This document shows, piece after piece, positions 4,518 to 30,455 of a DNA stretch of 62,068 nt (its first letter is position 1; every line of letters begins with the position of its first letter). The DNA lies in NCBI GenBank assembly GCA_020630065.1, contig JAHDCC010000020.1, forward strand, positions 1 through 62,068, read 5' to 3'. The stretch comes from Acidimicrobiales bacterium. Lineage in GTDB: Bacteria; Actinomycetota; Acidimicrobiia; Acidimicrobiales; SZUA-35. The notes beneath the pieces were generated by a model. It was not told the origin of the DNA. It saw nothing but the letters and a program-made list of their open reading frames with translations, and searched no databases. The translations under genes were made by a program, and so were the position numbers.

Positions 4518-4563
4518 ATGACCTACATCATAAGCTTGTTTTCGATCTCGGACGACATCAACA

Positions 4564-5253: not shown

Positions 5254-5403
5254 CAAGGCAACCTCGTCATAATCTTTTGTGTCGTGAGACACTTTTTTGG
5301 GAATAGTGCTTCTGGCTCGCCGGTTTACACGCTACGAGGTCCAGATCGTCTAACGGTCCGACTGCCTCGATTTAGTCCACACGACAGAGGAGCAGATTCT
5401 TTG

Positions 5404-9673: not shown

Positions 9674-9698
9674 ATTCTTATCCTGTTAGTTGTGAAAG

Positions 9699-12478: not shown

Positions 12479-12523
12479 TGAGTTCCTTCTTCTAGCATTA
12501 GGTGACCGCAGCGGCGGTAGTAC

Positions 12524-13312: not shown

Positions 13313-13352
13313 TCTTGCCCTATCGAAGATCTAGGTTTTACCGACAGAATAC

Positions 13353-13393
13353 ATGATACACATATTGCCCAAAGTGTCAAATATGTGTATCAT
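13353..13393. promoter_or_regulatory. Predicted PaaX operator with two overlapping divergent promoters
   Basis: A perfect inverted repeat with 14-bp arms (ATGATACACATATT at 13353-13366 and its complement at 13380-13393) surrounds 13 bp in the paaF-paaY intergenic region. Both promoters are embedded: forward TTGCCC (13365-13370), 17 bp, TATCAT (13388-13393); reverse TTGACA, 16 bp, TATCAT ending at 13353. Each -10 is therefore the outer end of an arm, so a bound repressor would block both. The half-site recalls the TGATTC core of known PaaX operators. A near copy lies before paaK at 20879-20920. Confidence 0.75.
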
Positions 13394-13431
13394 TTCTACG
13401 TACGCAACTTTACTAGCCAGAAACGAAACCC

Positions 13432-14058
13432 ATGCCCATATACGAACTGCAAGGAGTACGCCCAGTAGTGATGGCTAACTCTTTTGTGCACCCTTTGGCA
13501 GTACTCATCGGTGATGTCATCGTTGAAGAAAACTGCTTCATCGGTCCACATGCTGTGATGCGCGGAGACCTCGGCCGACTAACCCTCCGGTCAGGTTCCA
13601 ACCTCCAAGACAACTGCTGTATACATAGCTTCCCTCACGCCGAAACCATCGTTGAAGAAAACGGGCACGTCGGACACGGAGCCATCCTCCACGGCTGCCA
13701 TCTCCAAAAAAACGCCCTCATCGGCATGAACTCCGTGGTGATGGACGGAGCCACCATCGGCCAAAACTCTATTGTCGGAGCGAACTCTCTAGTCGTATCA
13801 AACGCCCAAATGCCAGCCAACCACATGATCGTCGGTACACCGGCTACCGCGCTCCGAGAGCTACGACCAGAAGAACGTAGCTGGAAAAGCGCGGGCACCG
13901 AGGCCTACCAACACTTGGCCACCACCTATCTCGAATCCATGAACGAAGTCACTGCCGATACAGCGATAACCCGAGATCGCCCAACCCTGCAGCCCGGCGA
14001 CTACGTCACTAAATCCACCTATCAGACCGAATCCTCAAACAAGGCCAACCACTCGTGA
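13432..14058 (+). CDS. paaY: PaaY hexapeptide-repeat protein
   Basis: This 208-aa left-handed beta-helix protein belongs to the gamma-carbonic-anhydrase-like PaaY family, reported as a thioesterase that helps clear CoA esters. Hexapeptide turns run through about residues 20-140 (VIVEENCFIGPHAVMRGD), and the metal-type histidines appear in IHSFPHAET, HVGHGAI and LHGCHL. The tail after about residue 150 is unlike the core and probably disordered. It is the first gene of the rightward unit; its stop overlaps the paaZ start as GTGA. Confidence 0.9.
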   Translation: MPIYELQGVRPVVMANSFVHPLAVLIGDVIVEENCFIGPHAVMRGDLGRLTLRSGSNLQDNCCIHSFPHAETIVEENGHVGHGAILHGCHLQKNALIGMNSVVMDGATIGQNSIVGANSLVVSNAQMPANHMIVGTPATALRELRPEERSWKSAGTEAYQHLATTYLESMNEVTADTAITRDRPTLQPGDYVTKSTYQTESSNKANHS

Positions 14059-16130
14059 AAACAATAGAAACAACAAACCCACAAAAGCTAGCCAAACTCC
14101 AGAGCTACAGCCAAGGCAAATGGTTCACCTCGCCCGAGACAGGAGCGATACTCAAAAACGCCGTAACCGGAGATGACGTTGCATCGATCTGCAGCGATGG
14201 GCTCGACTTCGCTGCCATGGCAAACTATGCCCGGACAGTCGGCGGCCCAGCACTCCGAGAGTTCACATTCCATCAACGAGCCATGATGGTGAAAAACTTA
14301 GCCACATATCTACTAGAACGCAAAGAACTGTTCTACGAACTATCAACGGCTACCGGCGCCACCCGAGCAGACTCATGGATCGATATCGAAGGCGGCATAG
14401 GAACCCTCTTTTCGATCTCGAGCAAAGCGCGCATCGAAATGCCGAACAGCAAAGTCTTTCCTGAAGGCAAGCAGGAACAATTGTCCCGAAAAGGAACATT
14501 CGTAGGACAACACATATACACCCCTCTACAAGGCGTCGCCATACACATCAACGCCTACAACTTCCCCTGTTGGGGAATGCTCGAAAAACTGGCACCCGCC
14601 CTCGTAGCCGGCATGCCCGTAATCGTAAAACCAGCTAGCCAAACCGCGTACCTAACCGAGCTGATGGTTCGCCACATCGTCGAATCAAACATTCTTCCCG
14701 AAGGCTCTCTGCAACTAATTTGTGGACGAACAGGCGACCTTCTAGACCATGTCACCTACCAAGATGTTGTGAGTTTCACCGGCTCAGCGTCGACCGGACT
14801 GCGGCTTCGACAAGGCGAAAAAATAGCCGCCGCAAACACTCGATTCATTATGGAAGCCGACTCACTAAACTGCACTATTCTCGGAGATGACGTTGAACCA
14901 GGGTCGGCTGAATTCGACCTTTTCGTCAATGAGGTCGTCCGGGAAATGACGGTGAAAGCGGGACAAAAATGCACCGCTATCCGACGAGCGATCGTTCCCA
15001 CAACCAAACTTGATGCCGTCTCGGATGCCATTAGCAAAGCCCTAGAACAAGTCGTGGTCGGCGACCCCGCAGATGATTCTGTGACGATGGGAGCTCTAGC
15101 CGGAACCGACCAACGACAAGACGTTCTGACCGCCGTCGACCAATTACTCAAACACAGCCGCTTGGCATTCGGTGACGTTACACAGCAAAGCTTCGTTGGT
15201 GAGAACACTTCCAACGGGGCGTTTCTCTCTCCCCTTCTAATGGTCGCAAACGATCCACATACCACCGTCGCTCATGACGTCGAAGCCTTTGGCCCGGTAT
15301 GCACGTTAGTCGGATATACCGACCGAGAGGACGCAGTCAGACTCGCAGCGAAAGGTAAAGGTAGTCTCGTAGGTTCGCTCGTAACAAACGATGGCGACGT
15401 AGCACAAGACATCACCCTTGGGGTCGCTGCCCATCACGGCCGAATCTTGATTCTCAATGAGGCATGTGCCAAAGAATCAACCGGGCACGGCTCACCGCTG
15501 CCACAGCTAGTTCATGGAGGCCCCGGACGAGCAGGCGGAGGTGAAGAACTCGGCGGCGTACGAGGCATCAAACACTACATGCAGCGAACGGCTCTTCAAG
15601 GCTCACCAGACATGCTTAGCAACGTTACCGGCATACATATGACTGGCAGCACAGTCAAGTCATCAGAAATTCATCCGTTTCAAAAAACGTTCGAGGAGCT
15701 CGAAGTCGGCGACACGTTGATAACCGAAAAGAGAACCGTGACTCTCGAAGACATCGAAGCTTTCGCTGAGTTATCCGGCGACAAATTCTACGCCCATACC
15801 AACGAAGAAGCAGCCGCCCGCAACCCCTTCTTCGACGGTCGAGTAGCTCACGGCTACCTCTTGGTGTCGATAGCGGCTGGCCTCTTTGTCTGGCCGGATG
15901 AAGGCCCCGTCTTGGCTAACACAGGACTCGAGAACCTTCAGTTCCAAAAGCCGGTCTACCCCGGCGACGTCGTCCATGTGCAGTTCACCTGCAAGCAGAA
16001 GAAGAACCGGGAGACCGAAACCTGGGGTGAAGTCCGATGGGATACCACAATCTTCAACCAAAACGGCGATATTTGCGCCCACTATGACGTCTTAACCGGC
16101 GTCGCCAACAGTTCAGACGAAACCAAATAA
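14055..16130 (+). CDS. paaZ: Bifunctional oxepin-CoA hydrolase / semialdehyde dehydrogenase
   Basis: PaaZ opens the oxepin ring and oxidises the resulting aldehyde. The 691-aa product has an N-terminal aldehyde dehydrogenase (about 1-530) with Cys about 306 in GQKCTAIRR, Glu in MEADSLN and the NADP-site Lys in VIVKPAS. A C-terminal MaoC hydratase (about 545-690) has the catalytic Asp-His pair in [10 protein letters not shown]. Both halves look intact, so ring opening and oxidation should be coupled. It starts with GTG overlapping the paaY stop by 4 bp, and is followed after 13 bp by paaA. Confidence 0.95.
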
Positions 16131-16143
16131 GCGAGGAAGAAGT

Positions 16144-17133
16144 ATGTATAGCCCAGACGCACCCAACAACCAGAAGCTAACCAAAGCCTCTTCGGAGGAT
16201 GTAATCGAGTCGTTCGAACAACTCCTCGAAAACGACCAACGCATCGAACCTCGAGACGATATGCCCGACAACTACCGCCGGACACTGATCCGCCAGATCG
16301 GCCAACACGCACACTCCGAGATTATAGGGATGCAGCCAGAAGCAAACTGGATTACCCGAGCACCAAGTTTGCGCCGTAAAGCGATTCTTATGTCGAAAGT
16401 CCAAGACGAAGCCGGACACGGGCTTTATCTCTACAGCGCGGCCGAAACCCTCGGAGCCGACCGCACTGACCTATTAGAAAAACTCAACGACGGCAAGATG
16501 AAATACTCCAGTATCTTCAACTACCCCACCCCAACGTGGGCCGACATGGGGGCGATCGGCTGGCTCGTCGACGGTGCCGCAATCGTCAATCAAGTGCCGC
16601 TCTGCCGTAACTCTTACGGACCTTACGCTCGGGCGATGGTTCGCATCTGCAAAGAAGAAAGCTTCCATCAACGCCAAGGCTATGAAATCATGCTGACCCT
16701 TAGCAATGGCACGCCGGAACAAAAAGAAATGGCACAAGACGCCCTAAATCGTTGGTGGTGGCCATCGGTCATGATGTTTGGGCCACCAGATGACCAGTCG
16801 CCCAACTCTGCCGCCTCCATGAAATGGAAAATCAAGCTCTTCTCCAACGATGATCTGCGACAAAAGTTCGTTGATATGGCTGTTGGTCAAGCCGACATTC
16901 TGGGACTTACCATTCCCGACCCTGACCTCAAGTGGAACGAAGAAACCGGACACTACGACTTTGGAGAACCTGACTGGGATGAGTTCTTCGACGTGATCAA
17001 CGGCAACGGACCGTGCAACAAACTGCGTGTTGATTCTCGCCGTAAAGCACACGAGGACGGCCAATGGGTCCGCGACGCCGCCGTTGCATTTGCCAACAAA
17101 CAGAAAACCCTTGCCGAGAATCAAGCAGCATAA
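16144..17133 (+). CDS. paaA: Phenylacetyl-CoA epoxidase catalytic subunit A
   Basis: PaaA is the di-iron catalytic subunit of the multicomponent 1,2-phenylacetyl-CoA epoxidase, which activates the aromatic ring with O2. The 329-aa sequence contains ferritin-like iron motifs: [15 protein letters not shown] (DEAGH) and [13 protein letters not shown] (EESFH), with the substrate-side region [19 protein letters not shown] between them. It is close to the family length. It lies between paaZ and paaB in the unit encoding the full epoxidase (A, B, C, D, E). Confidence 0.96.
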
Positions 17134-17155
17134 CAATCTACAGGAACCTACAACT

Positions 17156-17446
17156 ATGAACCCAACAAATGACTACAGCATGTGGGAAGTATTTATCCGA
17201 AGCCGACGCGGCCTCGACCACAAACACGTCGGCAGCCTCCGAGCCCCCGACGCCGAAATGGCTATTCAGAACGCCCGAGATCTCTACACCCGCAGAAGTG
17301 AGGGAGTAAGTATCTGGGTAGTTCCGTCACAACAAATTGTGGCTTCAACCCCGGGTGAGAAAGAACCATTGTTCGACCCCGCCGACGACAAGATCTACCG
17401 TCACCCGACGTTCTACGAACTACCGGCCGAATTGGAGCACATGTGA
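17156..17446 (+). CDS. paaB: Phenylacetyl-CoA epoxidase subunit B
   Basis: This 96-aa small subunit bridges PaaA-PaaC complexes in the epoxidase. The family pattern is plain: MWEVFIRSRRGLDHKHVGSL near the start, HAEMAIQNARDLYTRR-type helix, and the C-terminal HPTFYELPAELEHM. The frame opens further upstream inside paaA, but the ATG at 17156 has AGGAA about 10 bases before it and matches the usual start. The stop overlaps the paaC GTG by 4 bp. Confidence 0.94.
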   Translation: MNPTNDYSMWEVFIRSRRGLDHKHVGSLRAPDAEMAIQNARDLYTRRSEGVSIWVVPSQQIVASTPGEKEPLFDPADDKIYRHPTFYELPAELEHM

Positions 17447-18234
17447 GCCAACATACGACAACATTTACCCCGGCCACTGCCGCCGACGCTGATCTCTACT
17501 ACTACGTTCTACGCCAAGCCGACACCGCAATGGTCCTCTGCCAACGCCTGTGCGAGTGGGTGGCTAAGGGCCCCGAACTTGAAGAAGACATCGCCTTGAC
17601 CAACATCGGCCTCGACCTAATCGGTCAAGCTCGTTCGTTGTACCAGTACGCAGCAGAATGCTCTGGGCAACCCATTACCGACGATGATTTGGTGTTTCAA
17701 CGCAACGAAAGACAGTGGGTCAATTGTCTTTTGGTTGAGCAACCCAACGGAAATTTTGCCGACACGATAGTCCGCCAGTATTTCTTTGATGCATGGCATA
17801 AAGCGTTTCTCACCCAACTCACTACCTCAAAAGATGAGACACTCGCTGCGGTGGCGGCCAAGTCGGTAAAGGAATCCGCGTATCATCTTCGCCATTCATC
17901 CAGCTGGGTCGAGCGGCTAGGTGCCGGTACCGAACTAAGCAACGAACGGGCCCAAAAAGCCGTCGATGATCTTTGGGCGTTCACCTACGAATTGTTGACT
18001 CCCGATGAGCTAGATGAACGAATGCAAGTTCGAGGTGTCGGAGCCGACCTTGTAGCAATCCGGGCGGACTGGGAACGATCTGTCCACCAACACCTCACAC
18101 GCAGTGAACTGGCCGTCCCAAGTGAAGTTTTCCCGGCCACAGGAGGTCGAAACGGCGTGCATTCACAGCATATGGGATACCTTCTGGCCGAGATGCAAAT
18201 CCTGGCTCGAAGCATGCCCGGATGCGAATGGTAA
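17443..18234 (+). CDS. paaC: Phenylacetyl-CoA epoxidase structural subunit C
   Basis: PaaC is the non-catalytic ferritin-like partner of PaaA, needed for stable complex and CoA binding. The 263-aa protein shows the PaaC pattern LEEDIALTNIGLDLIGQARS, NLLVEQPNGNFADT-like text and KESAYHLRHSSSWVERLG, with the C-terminal GRNGVHSQHMGYLLAEMQ. The start is GTG, overlapping the paaB stop, and the 3' end overlaps paaD by 13 bp, consistent with translational coupling in the operon. Confidence 0.94.
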   Translation: MSQHTTTFTPATAADADLYYYVLRQADTAMVLCQRLCEWVAKGPELEEDIALTNIGLDLIGQARSLYQYAAECSGQPITDDDLVFQRNERQWVNCLLVEQPNGNFADTIVRQYFFDAWHKAFLTQLTTSKDETLAAVAAKSVKESAYHLRHSSSWVERLGAGTELSNERAQKAVDDLWAFTYELLTPDELDERMQVRGVGADLVAIRADWERSVHQHLTRSELAVPSEVFPATGGRNGVHSQHMGYLLAEMQILARSMPGCEW

Positions 18235-18767
18235 GGCCCGTGTCTGGCAAGGCTCTTAAGCGGGTCGCTAACGCACGAAACCAGAGTCGACTACCTTCTG
18301 GCGACGCGAAGATCCTCTCCCTTCTATCCCTCGTCACAGACCCTGAGATACCAGTGTTGACCATCGAAGAGATGGGCATCCTTCGAGGGGCCTGGAACGA
18401 TCATGGAACCGTTCTAGTCGAGCTCACACCGACCTATTCTGGCTGCCCGGCGATCGACCAAATCGCTGACGACATCCTCATCGTGCTTAGAGACAACGGG
18501 TACTCAGACGTTGAGATCCAACTCGCACTGTCGCCGGTATGGACGACCGACTGGATGAGTGAAGAGTCCAAAAAGAAACTGTCCGGATATGGCATCGCTC
18601 CACCTTGTCAAACCGCAAAAGCTGGCAACGTTACTTGGCGGGTTAGGTGCCCCCAGTGTCGTTCGTTTAACACCTCGATGATTAGCCAGTTCGGTTCAAC
18701 TGCTTGTAAAGCGCTGTGGAAATGCGTGAACTGCCAAGAACCATTCGACTACTTCAAACCTTACTAA
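18222..18767 (+). CDS. paaD: PaaD, Fe-S/di-iron assembly-type protein of the epoxidase
   Basis: PaaD is needed for epoxidase activity, probably in cofactor assembly. The 181-aa product has an N-terminal MIP18/DUF59 domain (LLSLVTDPEIPVLTIEEMGI; GCPAIDQIADDI with the conserved Cys) and a C-terminal zinc-ribbon-like tail with CPQC and CVNC pairs before YFKPY. The ATG at 18222 lies inside the last codons of paaC. The last part overlaps only the upstream extension of the paaE frame, not its chosen start. Confidence 0.92.
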   Translation: MRMVRPVSGKALKRVANARNQSRLPSGDAKILSLLSLVTDPEIPVLTIEEMGILRGAWNDHGTVLVELTPTYSGCPAIDQIADDILIVLRDNGYSDVEIQLALSPVWTTDWMSEESKKKLSGYGIAPPCQTAKAGNVTWRVRCPQCRSFNTSMISQFGSTACKALWKCVNCQEPFDYFKPY

Positions 18768-18790
18768 CCCACGAACAAGAAGCTAAAAGT

Positions 18791-19867
18791 ATGCACGAAG
18801 CAACCGTCACCTCAGTCAACCAAGAAACGCCAGATTCGGTATGTGTCACCCTCAAAGTTCCTGAGCAAAGTAAACCCAAGTTCACCTATACCCAGGGACA
18901 GAATCTGACGCTGATCAAAGAGATCAGTGGCAATGAAGTACGCCGCTCGTATTCGATTTGCAGCAGTGTCGCCGACGAAACTCTTCGCGTCGGGATCAAA
19001 CGAGTACCGGACGGTGTTTTCTCCACATGGGCTACGACCGAACTTGTTGTTGGTGATCGGGTATCGCTACTTCCCCCTTCGGGTAGCTTCTTTGTTGAGC
19101 TTGACCCAGGTCTGGCCCGGAATCATGTCGGTGTTGCCGCCGGAAGTGGCATCACCCCAATTCTGTCAATCCTTAAGACGACGTTAGAAACTGAACCCAT
19201 GAGCACCTTTACGCTGCTGTACGGTAATAAGTCGGCCAACACCGTGATGTTTCTCGAAGAGCTAGCGGCGCTCAAAAACGTGTACCCAGAACGCTTTCAG
19301 CTGTTTCATATTCTGAGCAGGGAAGTCCAAGATTCTGAGCTACTGTCGGGTCGAATCACTGGCGAGAAGATTCTTGAGTTCGTGGATCGTGTGCTGCCAG
19401 CAGCAGAAATCGACGAAGTTTTTCTTTGCGGACCTCACGAGATGGTGACAAGCGCTCACGACGCGTTCGCTCAGGCTGGGGTACAAACGACCTCGATACA
19501 TACCGAATTGTTTTTTGTGCAAACTTCTGCAGTCGAGGCTCAGCGGCTCCCCCAGAACGACAGCGCTTCGACTATCGAAGAAAAGACAAGCTCTGTCGCT
19601 ATCGTTCTCGACGGTACACGATCGGAGCTTTCACTAGCTCAAGATGGTCAGTCAATTCTCGATGCTGCGTTGGAGGCAGGAAGAGACCTTCCCTTTGCGT
19701 GCAAGGGAGGAGTATGTGCAACATGTAAAGCAACGGTCATCGAAGGCGAAGTTCGGATGGATCTGAACTATTCTCTAAGTGATGAAGAAGTTTTACAGGG
19801 AGCGATTCTCACATGCCAAGCCCATCCAACGAGCGATCGCGTTCTCGTTGATTTTGACCAAAAGTAG
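18791..19867 (+). CDS. paaE: Phenylacetyl-CoA epoxidase reductase subunit
   Basis: PaaE moves electrons from NADPH to the PaaA di-iron site. The 358-aa protein has an FAD domain (RRSYSICSS), an NAD(P)-binding domain (VAAGSGITPILS) and a C-terminal plant-type 2Fe-2S ferredoxin domain with cysteines in CKGGVCATC and LTCQAH. The frame opens at 18716 within paaD, but the ATG at 18791 (MHEATVTSVNQETPDS) begins just after the paaD stop and fits the family. It is followed by paaX after 21 bp. Confidence 0.94.
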   Translation: MHEATVTSVNQETPDSVCVTLKVPEQSKPKFTYTQGQNLTLIKEISGNEVRRSYSICSSVADETLRVGIKRVPDGVFSTWATTELVVGDRVSLLPPSGSFFVELDPGLARNHVGVAAGSGITPILSILKTTLETEPMSTFTLLYGNKSANTVMFLEELAALKNVYPERFQLFHILSREVQDSELLSGRITGEKILEFVDRVLPAAEIDEVFLCGPHEMVTSAHDAFAQAGVQTTSIHTELFFVQTSAVEAQRLPQNDSASTIEEKTSSVAIVLDGTRSELSLAQDGQSILDAALEAGRDLPFACKGGVCATCKATVIEGEVRMDLNYSLSDEEVLQGAILTCQAHPTSDRVLVDFDQK

Positions 19868-20992: not shown

Positions 20993-22303
20993 ATGACGGT
21001 AAACCTGACCCACAACAACCAAGACCTCGCCGAATTGGAACCGATCGAGAAGGCCAGCCAGTCCGAACTACAACAGGTCCAACTCGACCGGCTTAGATGG
21101 ACCGTCCAACATGCCTACGACAATGTCGCCTTCTACCGTCAAGGCTTCGATAACGCTGGCGTTTCCCCCAATGACATCACCTCGCTGTCAGACCTAGCAA
21201 AGCTACCGTTCACCACCAAACAAGACCTACGGGACAACTATCCGTTCGACATGTTTGCGGTACCACAAGACCAAATCGTGCGAATCCATGCCTCAAGTGG
21301 CACTACCGGCAAACCAACCGTAGTCGGGTACACCCGCAACGACATCGACGCTTGGTCGAACGTGGTCGCACGCACAATCAGAGCCGCAGGCGGGCGACCC
21401 GGCGACATGCTCCACAATTCGTATGGCTATGGCCTATTCACCGGCGGACTAGGCGCCCACTACGGCGCCGAACGTTTAGGATGCACGGTTGTTCCAATGT
21501 CGGGCGGCCAAACCGCCAAGCAGGTTCAACTCATCCAAGATTTCAAACCCCGCATTATTACGGTGACACCGTCCTACTGCCTAAACCTGATCGACGAATT
21601 CGAAAAACAGGGAATCGATCCCAAATCCACATCACTTAAGATCGGCATCTTCGGCGCCGAGCCGTGGACCAACGAAATGCGGCTCGAAATCGAAGAACGT
21701 CTGGGCATAGACGCCGTCGACATCTACGGCCTATCCGAAGTGATCGGCCCCGGAGTCGCTCAAGAATGTGTAGAAACGAAAGACGGCCCGACGATTTGGG
21801 AAGACATGTTCTACCCCGAAATAATCGACCCTGAAACTCACGAGGTGCTACCTGACGGCGAGCTGGGCGAACTAGTATTTACGTCGCTGGTCAAAGAAGC
21901 AATGCCCGTTATCCGTTACCGCACAAGGGACCTCACCCGTCTACTCCCGGGAACCGCTAGACCGATGAGACGGATGGAGAAAGTAACGGGACGCAACGAC
22001 GACATGCTGATCTTGCGGGGAGTCAACGTCTTTCCATCACAGATCGAAGAGCAAATCCTGCTTATCGACGGCCTATCACCCCATTACCAGCTCGAACTTA
22101 GCCGGAATGGCAACATGGACGCCCTAACCGTCAACTGTGAACGATCCAGCACGACAAACAACGACGATCGGGCATTACAGCAAACACTTAAAGCCAAGAT
22201 CAAAGAAATGATAGGAATCTCGACCTCGGTCAATATCGTCGCCACCGGCGAGATTCCTCGGTCACAGGGCAAGGCTCAACGGGTAGTCGACCGCCGGTCG
22301 TAG
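20993..22303 (+). CDS. paaK: Phenylacetate-CoA ligase
   Basis: PaaK activates phenylacetate to phenylacetyl-CoA with ATP and CoA, the first pathway step. The 436-aa protein has the adenylate-forming motif ASSGTTGKPTVVGYT, then YGLSEVIGPGVAQEC, the hinge region YRTRDLTRLLPG and the C-terminal catalytic Lys in RSQGKAQRVVDRR. A GAGGAG ribosome-binding site precedes the ATG. It is separated from paaX by 150 bp that contain the second operator. No phenylacetate permease is encoded in the cluster. Confidence 0.96.
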   Translation: MTVNLTHNNQDLAELEPIEKASQSELQQVQLDRLRWTVQHAYDNVAFYRQGFDNAGVSPNDITSLSDLAKLPFTTKQDLRDNYPFDMFAVPQDQIVRIHASSGTTGKPTVVGYTRNDIDAWSNVVARTIRAAGGRPGDMLHNSYGYGLFTGGLGAHYGAERLGCTVVPMSGGQTAKQVQLIQDFKPRIITVTPSYCLNLIDEFEKQGIDPKSTSLKIGIFGAEPWTNEMRLEIEERLGIDAVDIYGLSEVIGPGVAQECVETKDGPTIWEDMFYPEIIDPETHEVLPDGELGELVFTSLVKEAMPVIRYRTRDLTRLLPGTARPMRRMEKVTGRNDDMLILRGVNVFPSQIEEQILLIDGLSPHYQLELSRNGNMDALTVNCERSSTTNNDDRALQQTLKAKIKEMIGISTSVNIVATGEIPRSQGKAQRVVDRRS

Positions 22304-22442: not shown

Positions 22443-23813
22443 TCATCCAATCTCGGATGGACTCGCCTCGTGGTAGTCGGTGACCTGTTGGAAGGCGGTG
22501 CCAAGCGCAGTCAAAGTGTGTTCAGCAAATGGTCGGCCGATGAGCTGAAAACCTATTGGCATTCCATCTGAAGCAAAGCCTCCAGGCAAGGCAAGAGACG
22601 GCAATCCCGCACCGTTTACCGGGAATGTAAACTGGGTGGTCGCGGGAATAAGTGGGACACCACCGAGCTCGGTAGCCCCGTGATCAAGCACCTGATTAGG
22701 TGTCACCGGAGCGATAATCACATCGACATCTTGATCGTCAAAAACATCAAGATACGCCCGCTCAACGTTCATTCTCGCATCGTGGGCTTGGGCCAAGGCA
22801 GTACCAGGAATTGCGGCGCCAGCCGCTAGTGTCTCACGGGCCTCTTCTCCGATTTTGTCGTTCGAGGACTCCCGAGTCTTTTCAAGAATGGCGGCCGCTT
22901 CAGCAAACACGATCGTGGCACCGGCGTCAAAATGTTCGACGGAGTTCGGGACCTTCACCTTCGACGCTCCGGCCATAATTCCGGCCAGCGTCGAAATGGC
23001 GTCGGATAAAATCGCGTTGATTTCGGGGTCGACATCGATTCCTTCGTAAAACGACTCGTCCGGTACTCCTAGGCGAAGGCTGGCGGGCTTCTGTGCCATC
23101 GACAACCCAGTTTTCACCGAATATGGGTCTAACGGAGAGTAGCCGGCAATAACATCCAGCAAGATTCGACAGTCCTCGGCGCTTCTCGCCATAGGACCAA
23201 CCGTGTCGTAGGTCCAGGAAAGCATATGGACCCCATCGCGGGGAACAAGCCCGCGAGTAGTCTTTAAACCAGTGACACCACAATAGCTCGATGGCAGACG
23301 AACCGACGCTCCGGTCTCGGTGCCGAGCGCACCATAAACTTGCCGGGCGGCCAAACTTGCGGCGCTTCCACCCGATGAACCTCCGGTCATTCGATCGAGT
23401 TTCCAAGGGTTATGAGAATCTGGACATGAGACTCCGAAGGCGAGTTCGTGGGTGTTGGTTTTGCCTACGATCACGGCTCCAGCCGCCTCCAGACGGGCCG
23501 CCACCGTCGAGTCGTTCTCTGGCGTGAAGCCCTCGAGGGCGTCACAGTTAGCTTCACACGGCACCCCCTTAGTAAAAAACAGGTCTTTCAACGCTATCGG
23601 CACGCCGTGTAGAGAACCTTGTGGTACTTCTGCATCCAATCTGGCGGCACGCTGTTTTGCATCTTCGTCTTGGACCGACGCAAACGCTTTGACATGAAGA
23701 TCAGTTTTTTCGATGCGGTCCAGGGAACCGGCAACCAGTTTGGTTGCTGTCGTTGTTCCACTACGGACCGCTTCCGCAGCTTCTGACAACGAGGCTTCGA
23801 GCGGAATAGTCAT
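22443..23813 (-). CDS. Amidase-signature hydrolase
   Basis: This 456-aa enzyme hydrolyses a carboxamide to acid and ammonia. The Ser-cisSer-Lys triad is visible: Lys in VPIALKDLFF, the cis-Ser in the glycine/serine-rich loop TGGSSGGSAASLAA, and the nucleophile in GTETGASVRLPSSYCG. It is closer to stand-alone GatA-like amidases than to a tRNA amidotransferase, since no gatB/C lie nearby. It is the last gene of a leftward operon with an ABC transporter of the amide/urea/branched-chain type, starting 9 bp after the ATPase stop, so it probably cleaves the imported substrate. The substrate is unknown. Confidence 0.85.
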   Translation of the reverse strand: MTIPLEASLSEAAEAVRSGTTTATKLVAGSLDRIEKTDLHVKAFASVQDEDAKQRAARLDAEVPQGSLHGVPIALKDLFFTKGVPCEANCDALEGFTPENDSTVAARLEAAGAVIVGKTNTHELAFGVSCPDSHNPWKLDRMTGGSSGGSAASLAARQVYGALGTETGASVRLPSSYCGVTGLKTTRGLVPRDGVHMLSWTYDTVGPMARSAEDCRILLDVIAGYSPLDPYSVKTGLSMAQKPASLRLGVPDESFYEGIDVDPEINAILSDAISTLAGIMAGASKVKVPNSVEHFDAGATIVFAEAAAILEKTRESSNDKIGEEARETLAAGAAIPGTALAQAHDARMNVERAYLDVFDDQDVDVIIAPVTPNQVLDHGATELGGVPLIPATTQFTFPVNGAGLPSLALPGGFASDGMPIGFQLIGRPFAEHTLTALGTAFQQVTDYHEASPSEIG

Positions 23814-23822
23814 TGGGTCTCC

Positions 23823-24509
23823 TTAAATAGCAAGTCGTTTTTTGATTCGAGTTTGGATCGTGGGATCGTCGGCTGGACTAGCTTCGACAACTCGGCCTTT
23901 TTCGACGACGATGAATCGATCAGCCAGCCGGTTTGCCAACGCAATGTGTTGTTCGATTAGAAGCACGCCGCGCCCAGCGGACCGGGCGTTGTCAATATGA
24001 TCACCGAGAACTTCAACGTTCGATGGCTGGAGACCTTCGGTCGGTTCGTCCATGATGATCAACGATGCGTCTGTCTTTAGCGCACACGCGGCGGCAAGCA
24101 TCTTTTGTTCGCCGCCTGAGAGTGTTCCCGCTCGCTGCGATTGTCTACCAGACAACGACTTTGGGAACTGTTCGAGCACCGCGTCCTGGGCGTTTGGTTC
24201 AAACCCGTTTAGTCTCAGGTTCTCACCAACCGTCAATTCTTGGAACAGACCTTTTTCCTGGAAGGTAGCCCGTAAACCGGCCCGGACTCGTTTCGATGGC
24301 GCCCAGTTAGTGATTGGTTGATCGTCGAGTAGAAGTTCCCCATCGGTTACCGGTAGCAGACCCATCAAGGTTTTGACCAGTGTGGTTTTGCCGACGCCGT
24401 TACGACCAACTAAGGCGACTATTTCGCCCGATTGGATCTCCATCGAGATGCCGTGCAAAGCGGGCACGCCGCCGTAGCCGGCGTGAAGGTTCGTAGCGTT
24501 AAGCCGCAT
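23823..24509 (-). CDS. ABC transporter ATPase, LivF/UrtE type
   Basis: This 228-aa cytoplasmic ATPase powers a branched-chain amino acid/amide-type importer. Walker A is VGRNGVGKTTLVK, the signature TLSGGEQKML and Walker B SLIIMDEP, with EGLQPSN typical of LivF/UrtE. It has one nucleotide-binding domain and no membrane part. It overlaps the LivM-LivG fusion gene by 11 bp, so the two ATPase subunits are likely made in equal amounts. Confidence 0.92.
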   Translation of the reverse strand: MRLNATNLHAGYGGVPALHGISMEIQSGEIVALVGRNGVGKTTLVKTLMGLLPVTDGELLLDDQPITNWAPSKRVRAGLRATFQEKGLFQELTVGENLRLNGFEPNAQDAVLEQFPKSLSGRQSQRAGTLSGGEQKMLAAACALKTDASLIIMDEPTEGLQPSNVEVLGDHIDNARSAGRGVLLIEQHIALANRLADRFIVVEKGRVVEASPADDPTIQTRIKKRLAI

Positions 24510-26247
24510 GGTGATCTGCTCCTAGATAGACGGCTCGGACCTGTGGGTCGGCTTCGACTTCGGCGACCGTGCCGTCGGCGATCAGCCCGCCGTCAGCGAG
24601 CACGGTAACCCGGTCGGCTACGGCTCGGATAAAGGCCATGTCGTGTTCAACGATTACGATTGGCAACTCATAGCGGGAATGAAGTTCGCGTAGTAGCTCT
24701 GCGGCTTCTAGGCTTTCTTCCACGGTCATCCCGGCGGTGGGTTCGTCGAGAAGCAGCATGCGGCACGATCCAGCCATGGCCATCGCTATCTCGAGCCACT
24801 GTTTTTCGCCATGGGAAAGGTCGCCGGCTGGGGTGTCTCGGCGATCATCGAGACCCGTTTTTTCGATGATACGCATCGCGCCTTCCCCAACGTCGGCAGC
24901 CCAACTCCGAGTCAACAACCGTAAAATTGTCGGTTTGGTCGACCATGCGGCAACTGCGATGTTTTCGGCGACCGACAACGAACCGATAACTTGAGGCGCC
25001 TGGAATTTTCTACTTATACCGTGTCGAGCGAACTGCCAAGACGATCGATTTGTTACATCGGTTCCGAACATCGAGATGGTTCCGCCTTGATGAGGCTGTT
25101 GCCCACCAAGGACATCTAGGAATGTACTCTTACCTGCTCCATTGGGCCCGATTAGGCAGCGAAGTTCCGGTTCGGCCATTGTTAAGTCCACCCCTTCGAG
25201 TACACGGAACGGCCCGTAGCTCTTGTCAATGTTGGTTGCCGCTATGACGTCGGAAGAATCGGCCTCGTAAGATACCGGTTCAGCCGTAGTCAGGTTTGGA
25301 GTCCGCGTAGGGCGCGCCGGGCGACCTAGTAGTTTCAAAAAGAATGGCACTAGCCCATCCGGGATCAAGATTACCGACGCTATGAATAGGACACCGGTGG
25401 CGAGTACCCAGTATTGAAGGAAACTGTCGGCCAACGTGGCTGAGGCAAACCCGATTACCAGGGTTCCTATTACCGGACCTATGATTGTTCCTCGCCCGCC
25501 CACCAAGGTCCACAGCACAACATTGGTTGCCAGAACGAATCCGAATTTTCCGGGTGAGACGAAGCCGGTTTGATGAACGTTGAGCCATCCGGCTGCTCCG
25601 GCGACCGCACCACCGAGGGCGAAAACCATGATCTTTAAGCCGATCGTGTTGTAACCCAGGGTCTGCATTCGTCGCTCGTTGTCGCGGATGCCGATTAACA
25701 CGGCACCGAGGGGGGTCGAGACGACAACGCCTACGGCTGCGATAATGGTTACCGCCAGAATCGCTGCGGCCAAGTCTTGGGCCTCAGCTGAAAGTTGAAC
25801 ACCAAACAGATTTATGGATGGGACACCGCTTAGACCGTTAAATCCGCCTGTGACGCTGTTCCATTGGTTTGCAATCTTTTCGAACGTTAGAGAAAGCATG
25901 AGGGTCAGAAGTCCAACGACGACCAAAGACAATCGCCGGTAGAAGGCTGCCGCCGCGATTAGACCTGATATGGCAGCACCCACGATCACCGACGCCGCCA
26001 AAGCAGCAAGACTCCAAGATGGTTCTGCCGTTGCCATCCTGGCGGTAACGTACGCTGCTGTTCCGAATGGTAGTAGTTGCCCCAGCGACAAGATGCCGGT
26101 GTAACCCCACACAAGGTCGAGGCTTACCGCTAGTACTGCCAGGCTCAGAAATACTGCGAGCTGTCCGCTTCGGAATACGCCAGCAAATGAGTTCACGGCG
26201 ACCACGGCAACGATTGCGGCTATGTAGTAGCCAGTCATGCGTTTCAT
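24499..26247 (-). CDS. ABC transporter permease-ATPase fusion (LivM-LivG type)
   Basis: The 582-aa protein joins a LivM-like permease (residues 1 to about 310, roughly nine to ten membrane helices, with SLGQLLPFGTAAYV and GRGTIIGPVIGTLVIG) to a LivG-like ATPase (about 335-580). The ATPase has Walker A IGPNGAGKSTFLD, signature DLSHGEKQWLEIAM and Walker B MLLLDEP. Such fusions are known for urea/amide and branched-chain systems. It overlaps the LivH gene by 4 bp (ATGA) and the LivF gene by 11 bp. Confidence 0.92.
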   Translation of the reverse strand: MKRMTGYYIAAIVAVVAVNSFAGVFRSGQLAVFLSLAVLAVSLDLVWGYTGILSLGQLLPFGTAAYVTARMATAEPSWSLAALAASVIVGAAISGLIAAAAFYRRLSLVVVGLLTLMLSLTFEKIANQWNSVTGGFNGLSGVPSINLFGVQLSAEAQDLAAAILAVTIIAAVGVVVSTPLGAVLIGIRDNERRMQTLGYNTIGLKIMVFALGGAVAGAAGWLNVHQTGFVSPGKFGFVLATNVVLWTLVGGRGTIIGPVIGTLVIGFASATLADSFLQYWVLATGVLFIASVILIPDGLVPFFLKLLGRPARPTRTPNLTTAEPVSYEADSSDVIAATNIDKSYGPFRVLEGVDLTMAEPELRCLIGPNGAGKSTFLDVLGGQQPHQGGTISMFGTDVTNRSSWQFARHGISRKFQAPQVIGSLSVAENIAVAAWSTKPTILRLLTRSWAADVGEGAMRIIEKTGLDDRRDTPAGDLSHGEKQWLEIAMAMAGSCRMLLLDEPTAGMTVEESLEAAELLRELHSRYELPIVIVEHDMAFIRAVADRVTVLADGGLIADGTVAEVEADPQVRAVYLGADHHAA

Positions 26248-27098
26248 ATCGTCACCTCACGAGAGCCGCTTCGGCTCAGTTGCAACATGACGACCGCCAA
26301 GACGAGGGCGGCTATTTGGGCCCATACTGCGTCGACGTAGTGTGTGACGCCGGTTTGCACGGCTGCGACAATGGCGGCGCCGATCACGACACCCCATAGC
26401 CGAGTAAATCCACCGACGATGACTACTAGGAATGCTCCTGGCAGGTAGCTCAAACCGATTTGTGAATCGACGGATACCAATGGGGCTACCAGGACTCCGG
26501 CTACACCAGCGGCGGCTGCCCCAATCCCGAAGGCCAGAATGTTTGCGACGCTAGTTCGGATACCGCTTGATTCGGCGAGCCCCCGGTTTGCGACGATGGC
26601 TCGTACTGTAAGACCAAATCGTGATTTGGTGAACAGTAGAAGAACGGCTACGACTATCAGGGTTGCGACAACGATCAGGACAAGTCGATACGTCGGAAAT
26701 GTGATACCAAAAACGTCGGTTGCCCCAGGGATAGGGTTCGAAACTTTGCGGGAGTTTTTGGAGAATAGTATTTCGGCTAGTTGCCTCAGCACGATCGACA
26801 GTCCGAAGGTGGCGAGGATTGTTAGTTCCGGTTTTTGATATATCCGGCGGATGAGCACCATCTCCACGGCGGAACCGACGAAGAATAAGACGACTGCGGC
26901 GGCCGGTATCGCTAGCCAGTAGTTCAGTCCTCCGTCTTGGACCAGGTAGGCCACGTAGGCGCCGATCATCACAAATTCACCGTGCGCCAAGTTAATGACA
27001 CCCATGAGCCCAAACACGATTCCAAGACCGAGGGCGACGATCCCTAAGGTTGCGAACAGGCCGAGACCGTTCAGCAACTCGATTCCTAATGCTTCCAA
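26244..27098 (-). CDS. ABC transporter permease, LivH/UrtB type
   Basis: This 284-aa inner-membrane subunit has about eight helices and the family text VFGLMGVINLAHGEFVMIGA near the N-terminus and VGGFTRLWGVVIGA near the C-terminus. It pairs with the LivM part of the next gene to form the channel. The start ATG lies 99 bp after the binding-protein stop, across a hairpin that may set the ratio of binding protein to membrane parts. Confidence 0.93.
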   Translation of the reverse strand: MEALGIELLNGLGLFATLGIVALGLGIVFGLMGVINLAHGEFVMIGAYVAYLVQDGGLNYWLAIPAAAVVLFFVGSAVEMVLIRRIYQKPELTILATFGLSIVLRQLAEILFSKNSRKVSNPIPGATDVFGITFPTYRLVLIVVATLIVVAVLLLFTKSRFGLTVRAIVANRGLAESSGIRTSVANILAFGIGAAAAGVAGVLVAPLVSVDSQIGLSYLPGAFLVVIVGGFTRLWGVVIGAAIVAAVQTGVTHYVDAVWAQIAALVLAVVMLQLSRSGSREVTI

Positions 27099-27197: not shown

Positions 27198-28466
27198 TTA
27201 CAGTTCGCAGGTTTCTTCTGGTACGACTGCCGGGAACGTCTCGACAATTTCCTGACTGCCGTCTTCTTGTACCTGAGCAACGTGGATCGACTGAGTGAGA
27301 TGTCGACTTTCGGTGATGGCGACATCACCATTTAGTGTCTGTTTGATCTCTCGACCCTGCATTGCTTCAAGAACAGCTTCAGTTTCGGTTGTTTCTGCCG
27401 CGTTGGCGGCGTCAGCGTACAGGGTTGCTGCGTCGTAGATGTGTGAACTGAAGGTGGCAATTGGGGCTGTGCTCATGTCGAACTGACCCGAGTAGCGTTC
27501 AACAATATCCTGGTTTACTTCGTTGTTTAGCTCTTTGAAGTAGCCGAGTGATACGTACATGCCGTCGGTGACCTCGGGGCCCATTGCTGCCAGAACGTTC
27601 TCTTCGTAGATGTTCGCCAGCCGTGCAATTTCGTCTTGGCCAATCCCGAAGTCGACTGCCTGAGTCTCAAACGCAATGGCGTCTCCTCCAACCAAGGCTG
27701 GCAGAAGAAGGTCAGCTTCGGAATCTGATATTTCTTGGACAATTGATGAGAAGTCTTCGGTGCCTAGTGGAACGTATTGTTCACCGACAACTTCGCCGCC
27801 TGATTCCTCGATGTATTCTCGGGCTAGTTCGAAGCTCTTTTGCGGCCATGCGTAGTCGTTGCCTAGGAGGAACCATTTCTTGCCACCTGTTTGTTCCATG
27901 ACCCATGGGATGGTTGGTTTCAGCTGTTGACTTGGCACTTCACCGGTGTTGAACATTACCGATGAGCATTCGCCACCTTCGTAGAGCGCAGCGTAAATGT
28001 ATGGGATGTTGGCCGCTTCTGCTAGTGGTTTGACTGCTTCTCGGGTGGCACTTGAATGTGTACCGATTACGACATCGACCTGGTCGGAGTCGAGTAGTTG
28101 TTCCATAGCTTGGCGACCGACTTCTGGGTCGCTGGCGTCGTCGGCCAAAACAACTTCGACCGGGCGCCCATTAATGCCGCCTGCCCCGTTGATGTCCTCA
28201 ACTAAGAGTTCGGAGATATTGGCGGTTGGAGGACCGAATACACCGGCTGGCCCACTGTTTGAGAACAAGATGCCGATCTTGACTGAATCGCCAGAGAGTT
28301 CTGGAGATTGGGTGCCCTCAGTTTCGGTTGAGCTTTCGGTTGTTGGGTCGGTCTCTTCTGTGTTTTCTGCTTCGCTGGATCCGCTTGAGCACGCAGCCAT
28401 CATGAACCCCATAGCGGATGCCGCCGCCAGGATTCTCATGCGCGTCGAATAACTACCCTTGTACAT
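27198..28466 (-). CDS. Amide/urea/branched-chain-type substrate-binding lipoprotein
   Basis: This protein of about 422 aa is the extracytoplasmic binding protein of the importer. It has a lipoprotein signal (lipobox in GFMMAACSSGS), an acidic Ser/Thr/Glu-rich linker to about residue 60, and a type I periplasmic-binding fold of the AmiC/UrtA class starting at VKIGILFSNSGPAG. The pocket-side motif GNDYAWP is the family's GSDY/GNDY variant. The frame allows an ATG at 28478, but GGGAGAG is better placed for 28466. It is a clear paralogue of the C-terminal domain of the next gene upstream (same GNDYxWP and VVGE motifs). Confidence 0.9.
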   Translation of the reverse strand: MYKGSYSTRMRILAAASAMGFMMAACSSGSSEAENTEETDPTTESSTETEGTQSPELSGDSVKIGILFSNSGPAGVFGPPTANISELLVEDINGAGGINGRPVEVVLADDASDPEVGRQAMEQLLDSDQVDVVIGTHSSATREAVKPLAEAANIPYIYAALYEGGECSSVMFNTGEVPSQQLKPTIPWVMEQTGGKKWFLLGNDYAWPQKSFELAREYIEESGGEVVGEQYVPLGTEDFSSIVQEISDSEADLLLPALVGGDAIAFETQAVDFGIGQDEIARLANIYEENVLAAMGPEVTDGMYVSLGYFKELNNEVNQDIVERYSGQFDMSTAPIATFSSHIYDAATLYADAANAAETTETEAVLEAMQGREIKQTLNGDVAITESRHLTQSIHVAQVQEDGSQEIVETFPAVVPEETCEL

Positions 28467-28545
28467 TCTCTCTCCCATTCGTTACCCATTTCAATGATTA
28501 CTTACATATTAACGGATGGGAGGCCTTGCGGCAACAGTCACGCCT

Positions 28546-29985
28546 CTAACGACTACTAACCGCACCAGGTATTTCGTCGAGAATACGCATTCCAGAAGCG
28601 GTCGCTTGCCCGAGCAGCAGGCGATCCGGGACAGACGAAACAGAAGACAACCGCGGACCCTCAAATCTGACGTTTTGAAGCCCAGCCAACACCGCGGTAG
28701 CCTCCGTGCTTCGCTCGCCGATACACGCTCGAGACCATTTATGTACAGCCTCATAGACTCCCTCAGCGGCAGCTGAAACCGGACCACAGTGCTGACCGAA
28801 CCTGTTCCGGTAGCGGGCAAGAAATGCCCGATTTTCTTGCGTCTCAAGACCCTGAAAATAGCCCAACACATTCCAGATATCTGTCGCAGTTTCACCCAAA
28901 TGCTCAACTACAGCGTCGTCCATGAGTGGAGCGAACGTAACCGTCGACTGCCGTAGACCGCTCGCCACAAAATCTCGCTCAAACCGCACATGGTCTTCCC
29001 CCACAAATCCGGCGACCACAATTTCGGCACCCCCACGGCGTATCCGGTCTAACGTCCGGTCGAATCGACGGGTACCAACTGGCGAGAACTCCTCCCCCAC
29101 GATCACCCCACCCATCGTCTCAACAATCCGACGAGCAGTAGACGCCAGCGCATGAGGCCACGAATAGTCATTCCCGGCGAAGAACCACCTCGTTCCGCCT
29201 GTTTCTCGGGCCAACAATGGGAGAGCCCGGTGCAGCTGATCGAGAGGTGACTCCCCAGAACAAACCAGCAATGGATGCTCGGCCTTAACTTCACTCGTCG
29301 GTGTGTAAAGATACGGAATACCAGCCTGAATAGCCAGTGGATTTACCTTCTTGAACGTGTCCGAAGAGTGCATCCCGACAACGGCCGCCAAGTTAGGAAC
29401 AGCTAGTAGACGCCGCATCGCGACCCGCCCGATCGAAGAATTCGTTGCATCGTCAGCAACCACCAACCTCACTTGACGACCGAGGATGCCCCCGTCGGCA
29501 TTAACTTCCTCGATTGCCAGCTCGGCGCAGTTCACAGTCGAACGACCCAGAATGCCAGCCGAACCAGATAGACACGTTAACAGACCTAACGGAATCGACC
29601 GATCATCAACGTTTACCTGCTGAAACAGCCCCAACTCGGTACCCAGCCGGGCTATTTCTTCCTCGTCGATCGTGACCCGAAGACGGACCCGAGTACCTCC
29701 GGTAGACAACGGTTGGAGCCGACAATCCACCTGCCCCGTCCATGGCGATTCGTGAGCCAACACGATTTGTCGGTTCGGGCGCACCGAAAGAATTCGAGCC
29801 GTACCGCCCACCCCAGGCAAACCGGCAAGAGGAACAGCGAGCCGAACAAGCACTCCGGGCTGCAAAGCGGAAGCCTCCGACCCAAAAAGCCAACCTAGCG
29901 ACGGATCACCCTGACCGAAATAGCCACACAGCTCACTAGGACCGGCGTTGAGCTTGACTTCTTTGTGCAATACCAATTCGCCCAT
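28546..29985 (-). CDS. Cytoplasmic SRPBCC - periplasmic-binding-protein fusion (predicted ligand sensor)
   Basis: This 479-aa protein has two parts. Residues 3 to about 117 look like an SRPBCC/AHSA1 domain (GTARILSVRPNRQIVLAHES followed by TGGTRVRLRVTI). Residues about 130-475 form an AmiC/UrtA-like type I periplasmic-binding fold (IPLGLLTCLSGSAGILG, GMHSSDTFKKVNPLA, GNDYSWP, VVGEEFSPVGT). There is no signal peptide or membrane helix, so it should be cytoplasmic. The second part is a paralogue of the transporter's own binding protein. Cytosolic AmiC is a known amide sensor, so a sensing role is likely. It lies 11 bp after an ArsR regulator, a usual SRPBCC partner, and before the transporter genes. 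Confidence 0.85.
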   Translation of the reverse strand: MGELVLHKEVKLNAGPSELCGYFGQGDPSLGWLFGSEASALQPGVLVRLAVPLAGLPGVGGTARILSVRPNRQIVLAHESPWTGQVDCRLQPLSTGGTRVRLRVTIDEEEIARLGTELGLFQQVNVDDRSIPLGLLTCLSGSAGILGRSTVNCAELAIEEVNADGGILGRQVRLVVADDATNSSIGRVAMRRLLAVPNLAAVVGMHSSDTFKKVNPLAIQAGIPYLYTPTSEVKAEHPLLVCSGESPLDQLHRALPLLARETGGTRWFFAGNDYSWPHALASTARRIVETMGGVIVGEEFSPVGTRRFDRTLDRIRRGGAEIVVAGFVGEDHVRFERDFVASGLRQSTVTFAPLMDDAVVEHLGETATDIWNVLGYFQGLETQENRAFLARYRNRFGQHCGPVSAAAEGVYEAVHKWSRACIGERSTEATAVLAGLQNVRFEGPRLSSVSSVPDRLLLGQATASGMRILDEIPGAVSSR

Positions 29986-29996
29986 AGAGCTTCTCC

Positions 29997-30341
29997 CTAG
30001 GCGCTTTGCTCCTCATTTTCGGAACCAGGAGCGACGCCTTCCACAACTGCGGCCAATTGATCTAACGAATTTTCGTAGACTTCAGCCAAAAAGGTTACAA
30101 CGGCATCGGCGGGCTGAGAGTTTAATGAATAGAACCGATAGCGACCTTCACGACGCTCCGAAACCAAGCCTGCTAGCCGTAAGATTCGTAAATGTGTAGA
30201 TACCGCACTACGACCAATCTCGAATTCTTCCGCAATCGCCCCAGACGTAATCTCGTCGTGTTGCCCCACCAAACTTAAGATGGCCCGACGATTCGGGTCG
30301 GCCAAAGCGTTAAATACTGCGTTGTTATCCGGTGGTTCCAT
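29997..30341 (-). CDS. ArsR-family winged-helix regulator
   Basis: This 114-aa repressor-type protein has the ArsR winged helix: NAVFNALADPNRRAILSLV, EITSGAIAEEFEIGRSAVST with the recognition helix, and the wing GRYRFYSLN. No metal-binding Cys motif (CxC) is present; it matches the ArsR group that pairs with SRPBCC proteins. The frame reaches 30359, but the ATG at 30341 (MEPPDNN) fits the family. It heads the leftward transporter operon. A direct repeat TTGTC-N5-TTGTC at 30360-30374 just upstream could be part of its operator (weak). Confidence 0.85.
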   Translation of the reverse strand: MEPPDNNAVFNALADPNRRAILSLVGQHDEITSGAIAEEFEIGRSAVSTHLRILRLAGLVSERREGRYRFYSLNSQPADAVVTFLAEVYENSLDQLAAVVEGVAPGSENEEQSA

Positions 30342-30455
30342 AGCAAACCTGATGATCACTTGTCAATAATTGTCTACATATCATACCATACGGCAGCCCG
30401 GAGGGATAGCCCCAGCGCTGCTAGGGTTTCTACCCATGACATCGAAGGATTCTAG

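Follow-up and report, generated by a model that had tools for sequence, protein, structure and literature searches.

An ArsR regulator and an SRPBCC-AmiC-type fusion protein as a probable NhlD/NhlC-type pair beside an importer-amidase operon of an Acidimicrobiales bacterium

We have analysed a 62,068-nucleotide stretch of DNA from an Acidimicrobiales bacterium (assembly GCA_020630065.1, contig JAHDCC010000020.1, positions 1 to 62,068; hereafter the window), in which a gene for an ArsR-family regulator is followed, after a gap of 11 bp, by a gene for a 479-aa fusion protein. To judge from homologues and gene order, the two proteins most likely constitute an NhlD/NhlC-type pair, a kind that is already known. 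The fusion joins a UrtA/AmiC-type ligand-binding domain to an N-terminal half that is probably SRPBCC-like, and predicted operator sites support a tie between the pair and a neighboring importer operon. We consider it likely that ArsR represses at both promoters and that the amide-loaded fusion lifts this repression. The genes, the family of the binding domain, the conserved pairing, the shared sites and the catabolic context are read from sequence, and the regulatory reading of the pair is well supported. The pair and its predicted sites lie as follows.

30361-30381, minus strand: operator-like site ATATGTAGACAATTATTGACA upstream of the ArsR gene (matrix score 26.9, 0/200 shuffles; best of the window)
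29997-30341, minus strand: ArsR-family regulator, putatively NhlD-type (114 aa from an ATG, with a possible GTG start at 30359; HTH_20/HTH_5; no cysteine)
28546-29985, minus strand: fusion co-regulator, putatively NhlC-type (479 aa, ATG start, no export signal)
29626-29985, minus strand: probable SRPBCC/AHSA1-like N-terminal domain, fusion residues 1-120 (AlphaFold2 (AF2) model and fold searches)
28648-29604, minus strand: UrtA/AmiC-type ligand-binding domain, fusion residues 128-446 (PF13458; Foldseek matches UrtA 8tg1 and AmiC 1qnl/1pea)
28489-28509, minus strand: operator-like site ATATGTAAGTAATCATTGAAA upstream of the exported binding protein gene (score 15.0, 0/200 shuffles; second best of the window)

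The preliminary description of this stretch had proposed a candidate new module, with AmiC and its antiterminator as the precedent named. In a tblastn search against plasmids, a single place covered 80% or more of the fusion in 14 records; H1-H8 were identifiable among the matches listed, and five were opened (L066-L070), from Rhodococcus rhodochrous BAA-870 pNit (L066), R. aetherivorans pN1, Paenarthrobacter aurescens pTC2 and two R. pyridinivorans plasmids. Their homologues align over both domains of the fusion at 33-36% identity (five members, alignment A4), an ArsR gene lies directly 5' of the homologue in 5/5 loci, and nitrile hydratase and amidase genes lie within 8 kb of it in four of the five. 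Because two-domain homologues with an upstream ArsR are thus present on Rhodococcus and Paenarthrobacter plasmids, among them nitrile hydratase clusters of Rhodococcus, a new kind of module was rejected. The 1996 work of Komeda on the nhl cluster of R. rhodochrous J1 reportedly showed that the ArsR-like nhlD represses and the AmiC-like nhlC activates, with amides as inducers. The order in L066 is ArsR, AmiC-like protein, nitrile hydratase beta, nitrile hydratase alpha, accessory protein, cobalt transporter and amidase, which we take to be that of the J1 cluster; the ArsR-fusion pair is therefore filed with NhlD/NhlC. By the same gene order, the BAA-870 pair would correspond to J1 NhlD/NhlC, J1 NhlC itself lying outside the alignment. 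The nhlD-nhlC layout matches the plasmid ArsR-fusion loci, so AmiC does not stand as the sole precedent.

Two further comparisons link the window with the plasmids. The binding domains of window-type and plasmid fusions form one group on a tree (100/99), and the window ArsR is 47-52% identical to the fusion-linked ArsR proteins of L066-L069; the plasmid of L068 also carries an unlinked ArsR, which matches the window ArsR at E 0.01 only. The BAA-870 locus shares with the window an ArsR gene, a short gap (15 bp) and a two-domain fusion homologue (36% identity), but there the pair is followed by nitrile hydratase and amidase genes, with palindrome sites before ArsR and nthB, whereas the targets in the window would be an ATP-binding cassette (ABC) importer that has an exported binding protein of its own, together with an amidase and, probably, a phenylacetate route. 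The pair in the window has an amidase as neighbor but does not adjoin nitrile hydratase genes; none was found among the window genes classified, and the only nitrile hydratase alpha match of the genome lies on contig C76, outside the window. We take nitrile hydratase adjacency as a trait of the known examples, not of the protein pair. At L069 747-1153 a second NhlD-like ArsR gene carries its own palindrome, with no annotated fusion gene beside it.

The two-domain open reading frame (ORF), its distance from the ArsR gene and its match to Peripla_BP_6 (PF13458, residues 131-446, E 1.1e-66) were confirmed. UrtA and AmiC, binders of urea and amides, are the nearest solved structures to the C-terminal half by sequence, and AmiC is among the top folds. 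Against the UrtA model TIGR03407 the fusion scores 129 bits, with a cut-off of 492.75, and does not belong to UrtA by this measure; urea as a proven ligand was rejected, since the UrtA models stay far under cut-off. For residues 1-123, where no Pfam family scores above cut-off, an AF2 model (predicted local distance difference test (pLDDT) 73, predicted template modelling score 0.70) has the element order beta-alpha-alpha-beta5-alpha, which is the SRPBCC order. Foldseek gave 67 matches to this model at E <= 0.001 (best E 3.2e-5), and the family-naming titles among the 50 rows listed were Aha1, PR-10/Bet v 1, PYL1 and similar ones. The best VIA match (3q63_E) had Z 8.7, slightly higher than the 7-8 that is typical of this tool when a model has no clear match, with a root-mean-square deviation of 3.7 over 105 aligned residues. 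In a model of the full-length fusion the N-terminal part is poor, with a block pLDDT of 36-44 over residues 1-40. Residues W32, L33, G44, V47, R64, H78, P81, W82, G84 and G96 are invariant across 12 aligned rows from both lineages. The SRPBCC-like assignment made earlier for residues 1-120 is upheld in that these residues probably adopt a helix-grip fold of this kind.

No signal peptide or membrane stretch was seen in the fusion, and the first strand of the model begins at residue 3. Within residues 1-40, hydrophobicity over 19 residues peaks at 0.10 (1.44 in the whole fusion), compared with 1.37 in the first 40 residues of the exported protein of the operon, which also shows a lipobox-like AAC by eye. 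A cytosolic location, as first proposed, is supported by these values. The fusion had also been called a paralogue of this exported protein on account of shared motifs. Distant homology stands (34% identity), and AGNDYSWP/LLGNDYAWP and IVGEEFSPVGT/VVGEQYVPLGT are common to both proteins. The UrtA counterparts are GSDYVFP and VVGEEYTPLGH, so that such GNDYxWP/VGEExxPxGT-type motifs mark the superfamily and are not evidence of one ligand; as proof of a shared ligand they were rejected. On the tree (23 rows, four with an odd letter make-up) the operon-type exported proteins form a group of their own (100/100), apart from the fusion binding domains, which group with those of the plasmid fusions. 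An origin of the fusion as a recent duplicate of the exported protein was rejected on this placement.

The window ArsR scores 81.9 bits on the ArsR/SmtB model NF033788 (cut-off 55) and 71.9 bits on the SdpR autorepressor model NF033789, under the cut-off of 100. All 20 ArsR proteins of the close group described below lack cysteine, which makes a thiolate metal sensor unlikely, and a metal-sensing ArsR was rejected on this ground.

A site matrix was trained only on the ArsR-upstream sites of 17 relatives (11 distinct), with no importer promoters in training. A scan of both strands of the window placed the two expected sites at the top (26.9 and 15.0), with the third at 13.0, and 0/871 other window stretches reached the importer-site score. 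Upstream of the importer gene the matrix gave 27.2-33.3 in 16/16 relatives, which represent only 6 distinct sequences, with L030 scoring 26.0 and the window 15.0; none of 200 shuffles reached any of these values. Among other stretches of the 16 relatives and the window, 0/4380 reached the importer score of their own locus. L017, whose contig ends, stands outside the importer-site tests, and L030 outside the comparison with other stretches. This shared operator-like site supports a predicted link between the ArsR-fusion pair and the importer operon.

The importer sites read ATATGTCA-N8-TGACATAT, and in a palindrome scan that covered 18 loci they matched at 15/16 positions in nine relatives and at 14 in L077. 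The sites of the second copy in the same genome (L009) fit at 13/16. Sites of at least 12/16 begin 82 bp before nthB (L066, L070), 93 bp before amdA (L067), 30-60 bp before ArsR (L066, L068 and the further locus L076) and 18 bp before the second ArsR gene of L069; others stand just behind the fusion gene in L067, L069 and L076 and, in L068, at the annotated start of an operon with amidase and nitrile hydratase. The chance expectation for such sites is 0.05-0.2 per plasmid locus or L076. Because the consensus was written after inspection of sites, the plasmid counts are no independent test; the matrix scan is one. In the own genome the palindrome occurs at 11 places with up to 3 mismatches (control 3). 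Four of these fall within 3 kb at the second copy (C75:207884-210966), where they precede aldoxime dehydratase, ArsR (two) and binding-protein genes, and seven fall elsewhere.

Beyond the window copy, the close group comprises 19 homologues, of which 18 are full-length; the other, L030 (G305, also L077), has its first 21 residues unaligned, perhaps through a frame error, and was kept in alignments A1 and A2. Their sources are the second copy in the own genome (59% identity) and 17 GTDB loci plus G305 (59-64% identity). An 18th GTDB locus, L027, was a weak partial match and was dropped; the contigs of L028, L029 and L031-L038 duplicate those of L010-L026 and were counted once, L030 alone being new among them. 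The recorded hosts of L010-L026 are Acidimicrobiia, Acidimicrobiaceae and Microthrixaceae, with one entered simply as "bacterium" and one as Acidobacteria. In the order, 12/397 genomes, the own among them, carry the fusion at E <= 1e-70; in the family it is 1/39, the own genome only. The class and phylum searches were limited to scoring the 4 or 11 best-ranking candidates of each genome. The N-terminal profile A2 matched 4/395 genomes of the class: the own genome, two members already known, and one genome with a short stand-alone match. In the phylum, A1 at E <= 1e-100 matched 1/396 genomes, the own only, and A5 at E <= 0.001 matched 5/396, which adds to the own genome the distant fused member G629 and three weakly matching frames, 154-274 aa long. 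Within the own genome, A2 matched only the two known copies.

Other genomes with the same layout and ArsR neighbor were thus looked for and found, with ArsR directly upstream on the same strand in every one of the 26 opened loci (20 from the close group, five plasmid loci and L076). The exported binding protein adjoins the pair in 19/19 loci that are long enough (the L017 contig ends after the fusion), and 17 of the 19 continue with importer genes and an amidase. L012 and L013 carry the ArsR-fusion pair and the importer operon in divergent orientation, which marks the pair as a unit of its own.

On the minus strand of the window the order is ArsR, fusion, exported binding protein, UrtB-like permease, fused UrtC-UrtD-like protein, UrtE-like ATPase and amidase, and the features beyond the pair are these.

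27198-28478, minus strand: exported UrtA/AmiC-type binding protein of the ABC importer (PF13458, E 1.8e-92)
26244-27098, minus strand: UrtB/LivH-like permease (PF02653; TIGR03409 228.5 bits, under the cut-off of 250.3)
24499-26247, minus strand: UrtC-like permease fused to a UrtD-like ATPase, 582 aa (PF02653 at 30-291, PF00005 at 350-505)
23823-24509, minus strand: UrtE/LivF-like ATPase (PF00005; TIGR03410 191 bits, under the cut-off of 285.8)
22443-23813, minus strand: amidase (PF01425; indoleacetamide hydrolase is the top NCBIfam model, at 280.5 of 532 bits)
20993-22303, plus strand: phenylacetate-CoA ligase PaaK, adjoining the amidase (TIGR02155 731 bits, cut-off 646.3)
8447-19867, both strands: phenylacetate catabolic genes (minus: thiolase, PaaH-like, PaaG, PaaF-like; plus: PaaY-like, PaaZ, PaaA, PaaC, PaaD, PaaE-like)
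17027-17446: PaaB-like ORF, assigned by eye only

Most of a phenylacetate pathway is encoded at 8.4-19.9 kb; PaaZ, PaaA, PaaC, PaaD, PaaG and the thiolase score above their model cut-offs, and PaaH, PaaF, PaaY and PaaE below. The fused permease-ATPase is a single ORF in 14 relatives and L077 and is split into separate genes in L009. The gene after the amidase, classified in seven relatives, is PaaK in three (L011, L012 and, from part of the gene, L013), PaaA in three (L020, L024, L026) and a Rieske-type oxygenase in one (L014). Our best guess from these neighboring genes is that the ligand would be an aryl-acetamide such as phenylacetamide. A tryptophan 2,3-dioxygenase-like gene (L012 15781-16581, 272 of 390.7 bits) lies near the divergent version of the locus, and indoleacetamide is therefore also a possible ligand. 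Two of the residues that we take to line the AmiC pocket, S85 and Y150, align with fusion S208 and Y274, which are present in 20/20 rows of A1 and 9/9 of A4.

The second full-length fusion copy (C75, L009), 59% identical, also follows an ArsR gene. At L009 7938-19854 the pair stands between a gene of the haem aldoxime-dehydratase family (PF13816 above cut-off; 187 of 600 bits on the OxdA equivalog) and an importer, behind which lie an amidase (PF01425), a nitrilase-type CN-hydrolase and another exported-type binding protein, and the region is likely an aldoxime-nitrile-amide locus. On the tree its exported binding proteins are still further from the fusion binding domains. A third importer locus (C76:16504-25981; L094 4505-13982), with an importer 64-76% identical to that of C75, has an amidase-like gene, nitrile hydratase alpha and beta and, in place of the ArsR-fusion pair, a divergent PucR-type regulator gene (504 aa); it contains no ArsR-fusion match, and no palindrome site of at least 11/16 was found in 19 kb. 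An SRPBCC domain follows three of the six above-cut-off ArsR genes of the genome, in the two fusions and in one stand-alone set (C55:16104-17336) of an ArsR gene and two same-strand AHSA1 genes, which lends indirect support to a contact between the SRPBCC half and ArsR. Two other above-cut-off AHSA1 genes (C68, C69) are not near an ArsR match.

Among known systems, AmiC of Pseudomonas aeruginosa is alike in being a cytosolic amide sensor of the UrtA/AmiC-type fold and, by PDB titles, a regulator of an amidase operon, but its chain matches only fusion residues 133-420, and AmiC would thus lack the SRPBCC half. Its partner, the ANTAR antiterminator AmiR, also differs from the ArsR encoded directly upstream of the fusion. 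AmiC-like and MarR pairs (Pleomorphomonas pSM30-1; Rhodococcus qingshengii pCP1) likewise place a sensor that is signal-less by eye next to a regulator gene, but the regulator is MarR and not ArsR, there is no SRPBCC part, and the tree branch is separate (99/98). The pSM30-1 locus (L091 4375-10882) has MarR, an AmiC-like protein without evident signal, a second amiC-named gene with a signal-like start, a Liv-type importer and urease genes, a similar design with another regulator family. UrtA has the fold and is the best sequence match of the C-terminal half, but is exported, and ArsR with stand-alone AHSA1 genes, as on C55, lacks the binding-protein half.

In the mechanism that we consider likely, ArsR would bind a ATATGTCA-N8-TGACATAT-like operator at its own and the importer-amidase promoters and repress both. 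The UrtA/AmiC-type half of the cytosolic fusion would bind an amide that is imported by the ABC importer or made from a nitrile. The SRPBCC half probably contacts ArsR, and the ligand-loaded fusion would lift ArsR off the DNA. The imported amide would be split by the amidase to an acid, which PaaK may feed into the phenylacetate pathway. Several observations weigh against parts of this reading. The SRPBCC fold relies on a single mid-confidence model; AHSA1 (PF08327) on the fusion N-terminus stays under its gathering score (13.7 vs 22.1 bits, E 0.077), and a signal below cut-off appeared in 1/20 family members scanned. AmiC T106, which we likewise assign to the pocket, aligns with position 229, which is P or V in A4 and has no counterpart. 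Symmetry is weaker at the ArsR sites: in the majority of the scanned relatives the importer site attains 12/16 and the ArsR site does not; by palindrome alone the two window sites reach a weak 12/16, with 1.5 expected by chance. By matrix the second-copy sites score 7.5 and 9.9 (1/200 shuffles each), and 8/269 other stretches of L009 reach 7.5. By matrix no signal appears at the ArsR promoters of L068 and L069 (17/200 and 55/200 shuffles), and the one at that of L067 is weak (2/200). A pattern hand-written from the window ArsR site, where its match is exact by construction, occurs at 30 places with up to 3 mismatches vs 14 in the control. The listed features of L069 include neither nitrile hydratase nor amidase, and the five plasmid ArsR partners have 0-2 cysteines each. 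In L010 and L025 an aromatic-ring gene (LigB-type, 9957-10976, and Rieske-type, 4480-5640, respectively) replaces the importer downstream of the exported binding protein; L010 has a UrtB-like gene 5.7 kb further on, cut by the contig end; and no amidase match was found in the stretches of either.

The same parts could be wired in other ways. The unliganded fusion might act as a co-repressor that keeps ArsR on the DNA until amide binding breaks the complex, in the manner of AmiC, which keeps AmiR silent in the absence of amide; AmiC, solved with AmiR as 1qo0, is a near match to the C-terminal fold, and ArsR and fusion always occur together. The deletion work reported for J1, with nhlC activating and nhlD repressing, fits relief of repression better, and we regard the co-repressor arrangement as unlikely, though credible. 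It is quite unlikely, in our estimate, that the fusion has two inputs, its SRPBCC pocket binding a hydrophobic second ligand (nitrile, aldoxime or aryl-acetate) and its binding-protein half the amide, with the ArsR contact elsewhere. Binding of hydrophobic ligands is frequent among SRPBCC proteins, the fold matches include PYL1 and Bet v 1, and W32, H78 and W82 are invariant in the 12 rows of both lineages, but the stand-alone AHSA1 genes after ArsR on C55 fit a contact role as well. We give very little credence to the fusion being a cytosolic ligand buffer or chaperone beside an ArsR that alone senses another signal. Such a role draws on the indirect nature of the case for ArsR-fusion contact, but it is opposed by the pairing in 26/26 loci, kept also where the importer operon is divergent and across lineages at 33-36% identity, and by the absence from the close-group ArsR of a cysteine for a thiolate metal site.

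Beyond relief of ArsR repression by the amide-loaded fusion, we tentatively raise a broader and somewhat improbable idea, that the SRPBCC half serves generally as an adaptor for docking to ArsR. NhlC-type fusions and the pairs of ArsR with stand-alone AHSA1 would then share one signalling logic, in which any fused ligand-binding domain could drive ArsR, via the ATATGTCA-N8-TGACATAT operator in the NhlD/NhlC branch.

The nitrile hydratase of Rhodococcus is an industrial enzyme, and to our knowledge the molecular basis of its induction by amides has been open since the 1996 deletion work. In one source, induction by amides or urea is described as first elucidated for R. rhodochrous J1 (PMC11573777). 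The portions covered of PMC6941271, PMC11573777, PMC7193024, PMC5482477 and PMC5391958, a set to which the two key 1996 papers do not belong, gave no account of an SRPBCC part or an operator for an NhlD/NhlC-type pair, and a literature search on nhlC/nhlD returned, among the matches listed, unrelated abbreviations. A search on a sponge context yielded nothing of use. The induction question now gains parts, namely a sensor of two domains, its ArsR partner and an operator predicted in two actinobacterial lineages, and the same switch appears tied to amide import and the phenylacetate pathway. If true, the adaptor idea would account for how amides induce nitrile hydratase and would provide a sensor design of the plug-in type. 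The value of the finding lies in this parts list and the predicted operator, which make an old induction question testable.

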